Shown here: piece by piece, positions 1 through 12,683 of the stretch | Numbering within the stretch: position 1 is the first letter of the stretch | Layout: each line of letters begins with the position of its first letter | The notes under the pieces: model-generated | The model's input: only the letters and a program-made list of their open reading frames with translations | Told to the model about the DNA's origin: nothing | The model's database searches: none | Position numbers and translations under genes: made by a program | Source: an uncultured bacterium | Lineage (GTDB): Bacteria; Actinomycetota; Actinomycetes; S36-B12; CAIYMF01 | Direction of reading: 5' to 3' | NCBI GenBank assembly: GCA_903826575.1 | Contig: CAIKEU010000085.1 | Span: forward strand, 1 to 64,000 | Length of the DNA: 64,000 nucleotides

Positions 1-1422
1 CGCATCGCCCGGCCAGCTGTAGGACGCAGTTACGGTACCAACGTTGGTGTTGGCTGAGTAGTTCGCATCGAAGGTGAGATTCAGTGCGCCGCCGTCGGTG
101 ACGGTGACGGTACATGGCGTCTGAGCCGTACCGGTGTAGACGACGGATGCGGGGCAGGTCACCGTGGTGGTCGACGCTGCGTGAATCTGGAAGGTGGCGG
201 TACCGGTTGAGGACGTGTGGTTCGCGTCACCTGGCCAGGTGTAGGACACCGAAGCGGTACCCGCGTTCGTGTTTGAGCTGTATGCGGTTGGGTCAGTCAA
301 CGCGAAGTTAAGGCTGAGCCCATCCGTTGCCGTGACGGCGACCGAACATGGCGTCTGCGCCTGACCGTTGTACGACACCGATGCCGGGCAGGTGACAACC
401 GTCGACGACGCGTTCGGGTCGATCGTGAAGTTGGCCGAACCGCTCGACGGTGCGTAGAGGGTGTCACCAGCGTATGAGTAGCTAGCGGTCGCGGTGCCTG
501 CGTTGGTGTTGTTCGTGTACGTCGGGGTGACGGACAGGTTCAGGCCGTTACCGGTAACCGTGGCCGTACATGGCGTCTGTGCCGAGCCGTTGTACGTGAC
601 GTTGGTTGGGCAGTTGACGGTCGTGGTGGTTGGCGTACCCACAACGGTCAGGGCCACGTCACCGTTGTACGTGGTCGACCACAGTGGATCGGCGTTGTAT
701 GCACAGTGGGCCTTGTACGAGCCAACAGGTGCCGTGAGACCTGCGTAGTTCGTACCGGTGTAAGTCGTGTCGGCGGCCGCGTAGATGCCACAGGTGGCGA
801 TCGGTGCAGCAGCGGAGATGCCGTTCTTCTTTACGCTTGTGTAACCAAGGGTGCTTGGGTAGCTGCCCAGTGTCGTCACAGCGTCGACTGACTTCAAGCC
901 TGGGTACGTGACGGTGAGGGTAGCTTCACCCTGAACAACTCCACGTCCGTTGACGTACGCGTTCGCGTAGCCAGCAACCGTGCTCGCTGCGGTGCAGCGG
1001 GTGACGTAGTTGGCCGGACCGGCGATCGTGCCGGTGAGCGGACGCCGGTAGGTCGTATCCGTGGCCGCGTAGAGCGCACAGGTTGCGGCGGGGAGAGTGA
1101 TGGTCGTCATGTCGACGGCCACACCGTTGGCGTCATACGCCTGCGCGACGACCGGGCTCGACGTGGTTACAGGGGTACCGGGAGTCCACGTACCGGCTGA
1201 GTACGTCTGCGGAGTGAGGGTGAACTGACCACTGCCCGCAACTGCGGTGATGGCCGTTCCGTAGGGGACGGCCATGGTTGGCGCGGTCCACGCGATCTGG
1301 TTGGCGAAACGGGGCACGGCTGAGGCCGTAGGTGCGATTCCCAGCGAGCCGGCCGCAACAACCGCGGCACTCGCTAACGCCGCAGCCCACCGTGTGAGCG
1401 GATGACGAGTCTTGAGGAGCAT
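1..1422 (-). CDS. Secreted tandem-repeat (Ig-like) protein, 3' end off the window
   Basis: This frame is open without a stop from an ATG at 1422 down to base 1, so 474 codons are present and the C-terminus lies outside the window. The N-terminus is a typical signal peptide: basic residues, an Ala/Val-rich stretch, then a PTASA cleavage-like site. Around residues 112 and 209 are two copies of a C-[GA]-[IL]-YAA-x-DTTY motif. From about residue 265 there are at least three tandem modules of about 75 residues that begin with CP and contain Y-[NT]-G-x-AQTPC, the third being cut by the edge. An AAGGGA ribosome-binding site precedes the ATG. Such modules are typical of extracellular beta-sandwich (Ig/MBG-like) surface or adhesion proteins. 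The ligand and exact role are unknown; the call rests on signal peptide and repeat structure only. Confidence 0.8.
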   Translation of the reverse strand, partial: MLLKTRHPLTRWAAALASAAVVAAGSLGIAPTASAVPRFANQIAWTAPTMAVPYGTAITAVAGSGQFTLTPQTYSAGTWTPGTPVTTSSPVVAQAYDANGVAVDMTTITLPAATCALYAATDTTYRRPLTGTIAGPANYVTRCTAASTVAGYANAYVNGRGVVQGEATLTVTYPGLKSVDAVTTLGSYPSTLGYTSVKKNGISAAAPIATCGIYAAADTTYTGTNYAGLTAPVGSYKAHCAYNADPLWSTTYNGDVALTVVGTPTTTTVNCPTNVTYNGSAQTPCTATVTGNGLNLSVTPTYTNNTNAGTATASYSYAGDTLYAPSSGSANFTIDPNASSTVVTCPASVSYNGQAQTPCSVAVTATDGLSLNFALTDPTAYSSNTNAGTASVSYTWPGDANHTSSTGTATFQIHAASTTTVTCPASVVYTGTAQTPCTVTVTDGGALNLTFDANYSANTNVGTVTASYSWPGDA

Positions 1423-9578: not shown

Positions 9579-12500
9579 TCAGGAGTGCGTTACCTGTAGT
9601 GCGCTCGTGTAGCCAAACACATTGGGTACCTTCGCGCTGGGATAGGCCATCACTTGGTAGCGAGTTGGGCCTCCCACAAGTGCGATCCCGTTGAGCGTGA
9701 ACGCTCCCTGAGCATTGGTTTTTGCGGAGGCGACGATCTTCCAGGAGCCAGCATCCCAATGTCGCAGTACGACTTGTAAACCAGCGAGGCGAGGGCTGGT
9801 GACTCCAGCGAAGGTCGGCTTCGAACCGGCTGCAATGGTTGGAATTCCGGAGGTCGATGTTTTGGATACAACATGAGCCGCGACGCCCAGTTGCACCTTT
9901 GCTGAACCGGAGACAGATGCCGCGAGACGGGTGAAGCCATCGGCGGGAAAGATGACGCGCCAGTCGTAGTTTGATGTTTGCGCAGGAACTGCACTGGTGA
10001 ATGTGCCGTGTGTAGTGGCTGTCGTCCTGGCGACCGTCAACCATGTCGCTGCACCGGCCTTCTTGATCTGAACTGTCAAGGGTGCCGCGACGGGCATAGC
10101 TCTGAAGGTGATCGTGCCGGAGACGGGGTTTGCACTTGACTGATTGACAATTGGTTTAGCCAATGCCGTCGCCAATGGCCGGCTCGCGATGCCCGTCGAT
10201 CCCTGAGTAGACGAGGTCAGTTGCAGATTTCCATTGCCAGGAACGGTGAACTTCCATGAGAAGTCTGTGACTTGTGCGGGAATCGTCAGGGTGACTTTGC
10301 CGTCGACTCCAGTGCGTACCTGGCCTACGGGGGTCCAGGTTGTCGTGCCCGCGCGTTGAATTGAGGCAGTCACAAGCACATTGGGTACTGGGGCGTGATG
10401 GAACTGCACTACTGCTGAGGTCGAGATGACCGTGCCCGGAAGCGTTGCTCGAGGGACGGTTGGAGTGAGTACTAACGGTGAGGGGACGTCGGTTGACCCG
10501 CTGACGGCAGTGTCGCTCCTTGCCCATCCATCACCAATAGCGGTGGCTCGCCATGCGTAACTACTCGGCTGTGCGGCGATCGTTGTGCTGAAATTTCCTG
10601 ATGAGTCGGTACGCGCGATCGTGGCCGATTTCCAGTTTTGTGTACCTGCCTCGCGTACCTCGACAGCAACCGCTGCAGACGCAAGCGGTGCGCCCTTGAA
10701 CGTGACTGAGCCAGTTACCTTCGCCGGCTGCCCAACTCCGAGTTTGATCGGCGATGTAACAGTCACCGTCGATGGCACAGAGGCTATTTGCTTTGCGAAG
10801 GTTGTGATTCCTGTCCACTGAGTGGTGTCTTCACCACCGATCGTCCATTCGGCGATCCCGCCGAGGTGGTACTTATTGACGAGTTTGGCGGTCGCGTTCG
10901 CGGCTTGCGCCTCGGCGTACCAGCCACGACGAGACGCTGTACATGTCACCGATAGGGGAGCGGGCGTGAAGGTGATCGCACCGCTGATGGTCGACGGGTT
11001 GAGCTTTGACAACGTGACGGTGTGACCGGATACAGCGGTTACGGTAGTTCCGCTGGCCAGGTGAGTTCCCTTGGCTGCGGCACCAACCGTGATTCCCGAG
11101 ACTGAATCCACCAGAACGGTATTGACGCCGCTGACGCCGCCGACTGCCGAGGCGAGCTTAGTCGTCGTGAAGGTCACGGTCGACGAAACTGCAGCGGTGT
11201 TCGCAACGCTGAGTGTGATTACGTTTCCGGTCACTGCTGTGACAACGGCTTTGGCGCCAATTGATGCACCGGCAACCGAGGCGCCCACCGTGATGCCGGC
11301 GGGGTTGGTAACCGTGACTGTTGTTGCTTTAGCAACACCAGTGGCCGCAGCGGCCACAGACGTCGTGCCGGTGATTGTTCCGGTCACTGTGCCTGTATTA
11401 CGGGGACTGACCACGAGCGCATTGGGACGCAGTGCAGTGACGGTAGCTGCGGTTGCCATACCCGAGCCACTGACGTGTGTACCTACGATAAATCCATCAG
11501 TGGATGTCACGCTGATGGTGTTGCCCGTCGCAATGCCGCCAACGGCGGCCGCGCTGATCGTTGGCTTTTGATAGCGGCCAGAGAATCCGACTTTGTACGT
11601 ATACGTGCGTTCCTTAGCGGTGTCATCCCACGATGAGACGGCCCGCTGAATAAGGGAGATACCGGGAATTGTGGCGGCCGCATCGACGAAAAGATTCGTG
11701 ATGAATGATGACGAATACCGCGCATCGAATTCGTGCTTGCGTGATGCCCAATCCAGTTTGTTGAACAGGCTGCTTGATTGGCTGGATGATGCGCCGACGG
11801 GGGCTCGGTTGGGGCAGGTGCCGGTAAGCGAGGTTAACCAGTCGCGGCCGTAACTCGGAACGCCGATCTGAATTTTTGCAGGGTCGACTTGAGTGACAGC
11901 GTGAGCCACAACGGGATCAACCCAGTACATCGGCGCAATTGGTCCAGCGGAACTGACGGCGTAGTCATAGGCCATGATCCGCAGGCGATCGACGTAAGGG
12001 CCGATTGCCCCCCAGGCGTAGACCCAGTACCCGGTGGAATCCGATTGGGTTTGGAGCCCCGCCGGTGCGGTCACGGAAAGCACTTTGCCGCGAGCATGCA
12101 GAGCGGTTGACAGGTCGTGGATAAACGAGACCCAGCGAGGGCGCGTCGTCGCCCAGGTGGATGAGCCGTCATTGAATGCGAACTGTTCCCAGTCCAAGTC
12201 GACGCCGTCGTAATTGTTCGCGACCACGACGTTCACCAACCTCGAGACAAGTGCGGCCCGGTTTGGACTTCCGGACATCTGTGTCGACATCTGCATCCAG
12301 TGAGTGCCGTCAGTAACTGTCGGAATTACCTGGATGCCCAAGGAGTGCAGTTTGTTAACGACGCTCTTGACATCGATACCTGAGGTCTGGCTGTTGATGT
12401 GGACCGAAGGTGCTGTGCCGGAGGCGCTGTACCAAAACGGCGAAACATCCGTGAAAACCCTGGCGTTGGACGTCACCGATGCCATTGCCGCAGACATATT

Positions 12501-12683
12501 CCAATACGGCAGCCACCCGGTGACCATACGTCGTGGCGGCTGCACGGCTGGGGGACCGCTGGTGACGACCGTTGTCACAACGGCTGCCGGACCGACTGAT
12601 GCGGCTGTGGCCGGGTACAGGTATGCGCTGGCTAGTGCGGTCGCCGATGCGATCACCGCCGCTGTACGAACACCAATGCGCAC
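9579..12683 (-). CDS. Secreted glycoside hydrolase family 18 protein with interrupted barrel and Ig-like tail
   Basis: A signal peptide (about residues 1-28) is followed by a GH18 catalytic barrel starting near residue 52 (VTGWLPYWN). The catalytic motif DGVDLDWE lies at 159-166 with Glu166 as general acid, and MAYDY is at 238-242. The last part of the barrel (RRGWYAEAQAA, then GGIAEWTIGGED) appears only after residue 585; residues about 371-578 are an insertion of three Thr/Val/Gly-rich repeats. Residues about 635-1034 form four Ig-like modules of about 100 residues. The organisation is closest to spore or cell-wall GH18 proteins of the YaaH/CFLE type, so cell-wall or extracellular glycan cleavage is likely. 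The start is a GTG with GGAGG eight bases upstream. Transcribed alone. Confidence 0.88.
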   Translation of the reverse strand: MRIGVRTAAVIASATALASAYLYPATAASVGPAAVVTTVVTSGPPAVQPPRRMVTGWLPYWNMSAAMASVTSNARVFTDVSPFWYSASGTAPSVHINSQTSGIDVKSVVNKLHSLGIQVIPTVTDGTHWMQMSTQMSGSPNRAALVSRLVNVVVANNYDGVDLDWEQFAFNDGSSTWATTRPRWVSFIHDLSTALHARGKVLSVTAPAGLQTQSDSTGYWVYAWGAIGPYVDRLRIMAYDYAVSSAGPIAPMYWVDPVVAHAVTQVDPAKIQIGVPSYGRDWLTSLTGTCPNRAPVGASSSQSSSLFNKLDWASRKHEFDARYSSSFITNLFVDAAATIPGISLIQRAVSSWDDTAKERTYTYKVGFSGRYQKPTISAAAVGGIATGNTISVTSTDGFIVGTHVSGSGMATAATVTALRPNALVVSPRNTGTVTGTITGTTSVAAAATGVAKATTVTVTNPAGITVGASVAGASIGAKAVVTAVTGNVITLSVANTAAVSSTVTFTTTKLASAVGGVSGVNTVLVDSVSGITVGAAAKGTHLASGTTVTAVSGHTVTLSKLNPSTISGAITFTPAPLSVTCTASRRGWYAEAQAANATAKLVNKYHLGGIAEWTIGGEDTTQWTGITTFAKQIASVPSTVTVTSPIKLGVGQPAKVTGSVTFKGAPLASAAVAVEVREAGTQNWKSATIARTDSSGNFSTTIAAQPSSYAWRATAIGDGWARSDTAVSGSTDVPSPLVLTPTVPRATLPGTVISTSAVVQFHHAPVPNVLVTASIQRAGTTTWTPVGQVRTGVDGKVTLTIPAQVTDFSWKFTVPGNGNLQLTSSTQGSTGIASRPLATALAKPIVNQSSANPVSGTITFRAMPVAAPLTVQIKKAGAATWLTVARTTATTHGTFTSAVPAQTSNYDWRVIFPADGFTRLAASVSGSAKVQLGVAAHVVSKTSTSGIPTIAAGSKPTFAGVTSPRLAGLQVVLRHWDAGSWKIVASAKTNAQGAFTLNGIALVGGPTRYQVMAYPSAKVPNVFGYTSALQVTHS
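10950..11573 (-). repeat. Threefold repeat inserted within the GH18 domain
   Basis: Encodes about 208 residues in three related copies of roughly 65 residues. Each has a pattern of T-x-[VI]-x-V followed by GI/GF-x-VG, a short Ala/Gly segment, VTA and a T/V-rich strand. It lies between the segment ending YTYKVGFSGR and the final barrel elements of GH18, so it is an intradomain insertion, not a terminal appendage. Confidence 0.75.

Follow-up and report, generated by a model that had tools for sequence, protein, structure and literature searches.

The GH18 protein and its predicted barrel

The window, by which we mean the whole stretch of 64,000 nucleotides analyzed here, comes from what we infer to be a freshwater actinobacterium of "Ca. 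Nanopelagicales" and encodes on its minus strand a GH18 protein with the following parts.

9579-12683 (-), ORF of the 1,034-aa GH18 protein, with a GTG start
Residues 1-28 of that protein, signal-peptide-like start, judged by eye only
11574-12536 (-), barrel strands 1 to 7 and the segment following strand 7, residues 50-370
12186-12209 (-), catalytic motif DGVDLDWE, residues 159-166, ending in Glu166
11814-11816 (-), Cys290 codon (C241 of the modeled construct), invariant in 39 aligned rows
11571-11612 (-), hairpin strand 1, the insert carrier, residues 358-371 (strand 309-322 of the 594-aa model)
10950-11573 (-), insert, residues 371-578, 208 aa
11364-11561 (-), unit 1, unit profile E 7.6e-20
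11163-11363 (-), unit 2, unit profile E 4.0e-19, the best modeled of the three
10962-11162 (-), unit 3, unit profile E 2.7e-22
10917-10955 (-), hairpin strand 2 including Cys581, residues 577-589 (strand 528-540 of the model)
10827-10862 (-), barrel strand 8 region GGIAEWTIGGED, residues 608-619, with Trp613
9582-10763 (-), C-terminal region, residues 641-1034; its DUF4198 match (641-703) falls short of the family cutoff

Judged by its sequence, the protein is a catalytically intact GH18 hydrolase, and it is probably secreted. The Pfam Glyco_hydro_18 match (73.7 bits; cutoff, 29.6) covers residues 137-328 and ends at profile position 279 of 317. The GH18 motif DxxDxDxE belongs to barrel strand 4, and DGVDLDWE conforms to it, its three aspartates and its glutamate being invariant in an alignment of 39 rows (the window protein and 38 related sequences). 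Also invariant in these rows are Y190, D191, and W564 in construct numbering, the last being Trp613; we take them to be the conserved GH18 Tyr-Asp of strand 6 and the Trp of strand 8. Construct residue C532 (Cys581) is conserved in at least 90% of the rows, and a disulfide between Cys290 and Cys581 at the base of the insert-bearing hairpin is possible.

The GH18 barrel is predicted to be interrupted by an intradomain insert. In a model of residues 50-643 (594 aa, built on the 39-row alignment; mean pLDDT, 70.6), the barrel strands are mostly confident, strands 1 to 7 coming before the insert and strand 8 after it; a strand at 222-226 and the insert are followed by a helix at 543-556 and by strand 8 at construct positions 560-563 (residues 609-612). 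The insert is placed at the tip of a hairpin between barrel strand 7 and helix 7, flanked by hairpin strands 309-322 (mean pLDDT of 93, 80, and 65 for blocks 301-310, 311-320, and 321-330) and 528-540 (means of 70 and 83 for blocks 521-530 and 531-540). The segment from strand 7 to the hairpin lies mostly below pLDDT 50 and most of the insert below 60, and the orientation of the units relative to the barrel is unsettled in this model. The solved structure 5jh8 aligned with the model over 310 of 317 residues (VIA-align; Z, 34.4; rmsd, 2.5; model range 2..584) and spans both sides of the insert, which puts the last strand-helix part of the barrel after it. In a phmmer search of the PDB, 4wiw, 5jh8, and 4q6t each matched in two stretches, strong before the insert and weak at or after its end, and a unit-free GH18 protein of the window's own genome (G000:C21) gave a single Pfam GH18 run reaching profile position 315 of 317.

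These results bear out a sequence-only reading of the locus, in which the catalytic half (DGVDLDWE, Glu166) and the final barrel element were taken to be separated by about 208 residues inserted within the barrel domain; the insert occupies residues 371-578, and GGIAEW starts at 608. That reading had named a complete barrel before residue 371 as the finding that would speak against it, and such a barrel is ruled out by strand 8 of the model together with the 5jh8 alignment. The insertion had also been placed near the catalytic end, and the predicted strand 7-helix 7 position agrees, as the beta-alpha loops of a TIM barrel lie on its catalytic face.

The insert, its units, and their copy number

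The 208 residues of the insert are 74% G/A/V/S/T and include no Trp, 1 Tyr, 3 Phe, and 10 charged residues, a composition without the aromatic binding platform of a carbohydrate-binding module (CBM); the inserts of four relatives that were counted have no Trp and 0 or 1 Tyr. The threefold repeat previously noted at 10950-11573 was recovered as three head-to-tail units of about 67 aa (about 64 to 67 aa across the GH18 and phage proteins). The profile that gives the E-values listed above includes these units; in pairwise alignments, the three units scored z values of 9.5, 10.2, and 11.9 over composition shuffles, with 0 of 1,000 shuffles as high in each case. Tandem Repeats Finder reported no DNA array of the unit period (only a 9-base one), so the repeat is visible at the protein level only and a recent DNA tandem expansion is ruled out. 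An assembly artifact is ruled out as well, as units recur across nine genes. Against the G004 ortholog, the insert has a dN/dS of 0.12, a rough value with a dS of 1.54 near saturation and no barrel dS to compare, which suggests that the insert is kept as protein.

Neither Pfam nor NCBIfam gave a match for the insert (a WS_DGAT_C line at E 0.51 was taken as chance), no CBM family was among the matches of the window protein and the units, and 0 of 38 units had a match at E<=0.01 in the Pfam copy searched. PHROG 10467, a family of unknown function, was matched by 29 of the 38 units, by the window insert (E 3.1e-4), and by the G017 insert (E 2e-9); unit 3 of the window protein, taken alone, gave no match. 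Sequence matches of the insert or unit in the PDB were weak and were set aside (RNA polymerase, 0.94; the tail tube 9n71, 0.045; V-ATPase lines), and polyubiquitin lines at E 0.036 to 0.94 were taken as chance.

A separate 241-aa model of the hairpin and insert (36 rows; mean pLDDT, 77.6; pTM, 0.53) predicts an all-beta insert. Block means were 94 to 98 over most of unit 2, 71 to 92 in unit 3, and 69 to 83 in unit 1 after a poor start, and the hairpin strands were weak. The 35 rows from phages line up with unit 2 (in the printed alignment, which has one row more than the folded one), so units 1 and 3 were modeled on less. Two predicted strands, 81-96 (from unit 1 into unit 2) and 146-158, each run across a unit boundary. 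Among solved structures, none clearly related to the unit fold was found: for a phage tail-tube or capsid beta-fold, the matches were the tail tube 9n71 (Z 8.8 over 76 residues; Foldseek E 0.072) and 8eci, from Arthrobacter phage Bridgette (one chain; Z 7.2 over 77 residues; Foldseek E 0.25), which both lie near the stated background of the tool, and V-ATPase and Uba1 rows were taken as a common arrangement and not as relatives. Predicted viral structures gave 24 matches at E<=0.001, the best at 1.4e-10, including structural proteins of uncultured Caudovirales and of Synechococcus phages.

GH18 relatives were present in 116 of 166 genomes of the order (E<=1e-20). The unit was found in 11 of 114 translated GH18 frames, a set in which some genes are present from two sources, and was absent from the other 103. 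The 11 frames represent nine genes, since G008 appears twice (L006 and L159) and the G004 gene is split over two contigs (L002 and L033). Three units are carried by the window gene and by those of G004, G006, G017, and G007, two by that of G008, and one by those of G002, G003, and G010. The repeat number of orthologs, which the sequence-only reading had offered as a check, thus varies at a single site. The hairpin tip measures 77, 77, 78, 149, 211, 211, 216, and 219 residues in the eight unit-bearing rows of alignment A2, compared with 9 residues in 3 of 3 unit-free A2 rows and in 30 of 37 A3 rows (0, 1, or 7 in the other seven), so that the lengths of 0 to 9, 77 to 78, 149, and 211 to 219 residues correspond to 0, 1, 2, and 3 units; both the insertion site and this ladder are seen directly. 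The segment from Cys290 to the hairpin (11612-11816 in the window) is 64 to 68 residues long in the eight unit-bearing A2 rows and in L159 and 27 to 53 in the unit-free rows of A2 and A3; that it changes together with the units suggests accommodation or shared descent. A unit-free GH18 is encoded both in the window's genome (G000:C21, L031) and in G004 (L039). Together with the 103 unit-free frames, the same-genome relative indicates that the insert is dispensable for GH18 function. With the GH18-unit profile, 15 of 162 genomes of the order were matched at E<=1e-6, and in an even phylum sample of 296 genomes, all from Actinomycetota, the unit was found in one, the window's own.

Several further occurrences were noted. 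A second, partial copy on G008:C358, outside the 114 frames, has two units and no GH18 match at E<=0.01 in its remainder. The orthologous G004 gene is cut over two contigs (the end of G004:C127 and the start of G004:C77) inside or just after the array, and as both contig ends hold units, the assembly appears to break at the array. Units also occur in non-GH18 frames of about 800 to 1,010 aa in genomes of the order (G154:C77, G064:C30, G088:C36, G103:C70, G102:C124, and both C70 and C477 of G056). In the window's own genome, one unit lies at G000:C58:83574-83771 (+), locus L040, in a 2,701-aa frame that also matches fibronectin III, TIG, and, less strongly, an SdrD_B-like domain, a large surface-type protein.

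Trees were built without L060 (segment missing), L098 (broken frame), and rows of 200 aa or less, with L002/L032 entered once as G004. In the 65-row tree, one clade (96/99, starred) comprises the window gene and those of G004, G006, G017, and G008; a second (94/95, not starred) has those of G002, G003, G007, and G010 interspersed with genes that lack units. The unit-bearing genes need three changes on this tree, with 0 of 500 shuffles as low, and the insertion may have had one origin followed by losses. G007 joins the one-unit G010 when the barrel part is used (100/97 in the 65-row tree; 85/96 in the tree of that half) and moves to the genes with two or three units when the following part is used (83/94), a shift that could reflect recombination. 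For positional orthology of units 1 to 3 between species there was no clear signal, the position-1 units needing four changes with 312 of 500 shuffles as low.

The unit in phage proteins

When 514 viral frames were scanned with the GH18-unit profile, 63 gave a match at E<=1e-5 (best, 1.7e-20), compared with zero for 514 frames that had been shuffled or reversed; the viral frames were gathered partly by likeness to the unit and some were entered twice, so the 63 is no frequency. A profile built from just the three window units matched 59 of the 514 at E<=1e-3 and no shuffled frame. The module is common to GH18 and phage proteins, and by these comparisons its homology goes beyond chance. In tblastn against phages, the G017 insert gave nothing at 1e-5, whereas a phage unit used as the query matched 113 records at 1e-3, of which 112 are named Synechococcus, Prochlorococcus, or cyanophage; 22 of the 25 phage unit rows listed are annotated as fiber. 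Viral contigs held 14 relatives of a G017 unit; an adaptor unit taken together with short flanking stretches had at least 105 relatives, 80 of which were kept. One copy per protein was found in 55 of 57 phage frames.

Two kinds of virion protein show the setting of the unit. A head-closure Hc3 protein, L201 (phrog_578; E 1e-49), has a match that spans the unit at 116-194. SU10-type adaptors (PF24175) also hold the unit, with L191 matched at E 2.1e-16, L192 and L198 also matched, and L196 giving no match. The adaptor part after the unit, used as a query, found at least 80 loci, of which 75 gave a frame and 5 did not; these frames were chosen via a short motif, the Pfam check not being made frame by frame. 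The unit is present in 7 of the 75, each time between YSLA and GDYxYL, and is absent from 68. In 48 of these 68, the only ones in which the empty site was measured as such, it consists of 11 to 16 residues (e.g., SLAVFPVAGGDYLYLL in L291); another 13 were unmatched by the site motif. The remaining seven unit-free frames (among L288-L367) have 28 to 62 residues at the site, perhaps other inserts or motif mis-hits. Adaptor L192 has at residues 208-303 a second, different glycine-rich insert, matching tail fiber and baseplate wedge PHROGs.

For the barrel part of the window protein (11573-12683, -) itself, the PHROG match is 3432, "minor tail protein" (E 4e-23). Matches to this part were also obtained in 172 phage records; 166 of these bear the name of a Microbacterium phage, and among the 15 listed, 14 have the annotation minor tail protein. 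GH18 domains are thus present in phage tails as well.

Possible role of the insert and related systems

In our best reading, to which we give a probability of roughly one-half, the insert is a modular wing that flanks the substrate cleft. On the catalytic face, the hairpin between strand 7 and helix 7 would bear the three head-to-tail beta-modules of about 67 residues at its tip. The first and last strands of a module would be adjacent, permitting one or several copies in the tip without breaking the host fold; the unit occupies a single tight site in both of two unrelated proteins, which suggests that its ends lie together and that the barrel can take 0 to 3. Tandem units would form a wing that the sharing of strands between them may make stiff. 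As the beta-alpha loops are on the catalytic face, the wing would begin there and prolong the wall of the cleft outward from the hairpin, and it would hold the enzyme against, or space it from, a polymeric or particulate substrate, with a reach set by copy number. Phages may have been the source of the module. More tentatively, we picture a nomadic hairpin-tip module that would be traded between virion proteins of aquatic phages and freshwater bacteria, settling inside unrelated folds and reaching as many as three copies within an enzyme barrel; their number there would set the reach of the wing over the cleft.

The insert could instead be a tolerated passenger, the tip simply accepting a spreading, hairpin-fitting module that stays because it folds by itself and does no harm. 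The variation from 0 to 3 copies among relatives, the bland composition, and the presence of the unit in unrelated phage proteins while it is missing from 68 of 75 adaptor frames would all suit a passenger. Such indifference sits poorly with the dN/dS of 0.12, rough as it is, and with the Cys290-hairpin segment of 64 to 68 residues with units versus 27 to 53 without, which suggests accommodation or shared descent, and we consider a passenger rather unlikely. As a lid, one of the two functions first imagined for the insert, the array would fold back above the cleft and gate access, and the enzyme would act on chain ends or small glycans. The hairpin does occupy the place where the chitinase insertion domain (CID) walls the cleft (PMC2805709). 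The models, however, place no units above the cleft, the orientation of units to barrel being unsettled, and the invariant catalytic residues are common to unit-free relatives. A lid is thus improbable, and docking or spacing is preferred over it because nothing puts units above the cleft.

The other function imagined at the outset was an anchor, which in its classical form would bind carbohydrate as in enzymes with a binding module inside the catalytic domain; SusG, whose catalytic domain holds the inserted CBM58, is one. A beta-rich module adjoining a glycan cleft fits this, as does the occurrence of the unit in cyanophage proteins annotated as fiber (22 of 25 listed), which touch host surfaces. 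With no Trp and one Tyr in 208 aa, no Trp and 0 or 1 Tyr in the inserts of four relatives, and no CBM family among the Pfam and NCBIfam matches, the scarcity of aromatic and charged residues counts against a sugar-binding module of the classical kind, which we regard as quite improbable; docking or spacing is preferred for this reason also.

The interest of the window GH18 protein lies in its copy ladder and its phage-shared module. Because a single position in a catalytic barrel naturally holds 0, 1, 2, or 3 copies, and a unit-free relative encoded in the window's own genome can serve as a control, what an insertion within a domain does to an enzyme can be tested directly. The module, absent from the Pfam copy searched and present or absent at one phage adaptor site, links a bacterial enzyme to phages and is relevant to the question of how a fold can take in a domain and stay intact. 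Among the matches listed in a literature search, for which subscription papers mostly lay outside the scope, such a GH18 insert or unit was undescribed, and for PMC5574706 the matches to chitin were two entries of its reference list.

Of known systems, the CID is the closest in location. It lies between strand 7 and helix 7 in subfamily A GH18 enzymes, forms a wall of the cleft, and has an alpha+beta FKBP-like fold in which one helix accompanies five or six antiparallel strands (PMC2805709). The idea that accessory modules normally sit at the termini was therefore too strong. The window insert shares the strand 7-helix 7 location on the catalytic face, but the CID of that account is a single domain, whereas here tandem beta-modules, 0 to 3 among relatives, sit at one hairpin tip. 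SleL/YaaH (4s3j, 4s3k), YdhD (3cz8), and Chromobacterium 5jh8 resemble the window protein in barrel fold and sequence; their solved chains, in contrast, are of 298 to 433 residues, with a barrel that has no 208-residue insert. Enzymes of the SleL/YaaH/CFLE type bear N-terminal LysM repeats, and LysM was absent among the five Pfam families found at E<=1 in the window protein. Ig-like domains are promiscuous beta-domains displayed on phage structural proteins, over unrelated virion proteins; the unit is similarly scattered but is embedded within host domains, and a Pfam match was obtained for 0 of 38 units. By profile, the PHROG 10467 unit of aquatic phage adaptors and cyanophage tail fibers is the same as that of the GH18 proteins, and in the adaptors it is likewise a single insertion within a domain, although phage frames mostly have one copy, outside enzyme barrels, and GH18 proteins have up to three within the barrel. 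GH18 enzymes with insertions between strand 7 and helix 7 are thus already known, and what sets the window protein and its relatives apart is the copy ladder at one hairpin and a module shared with phages.
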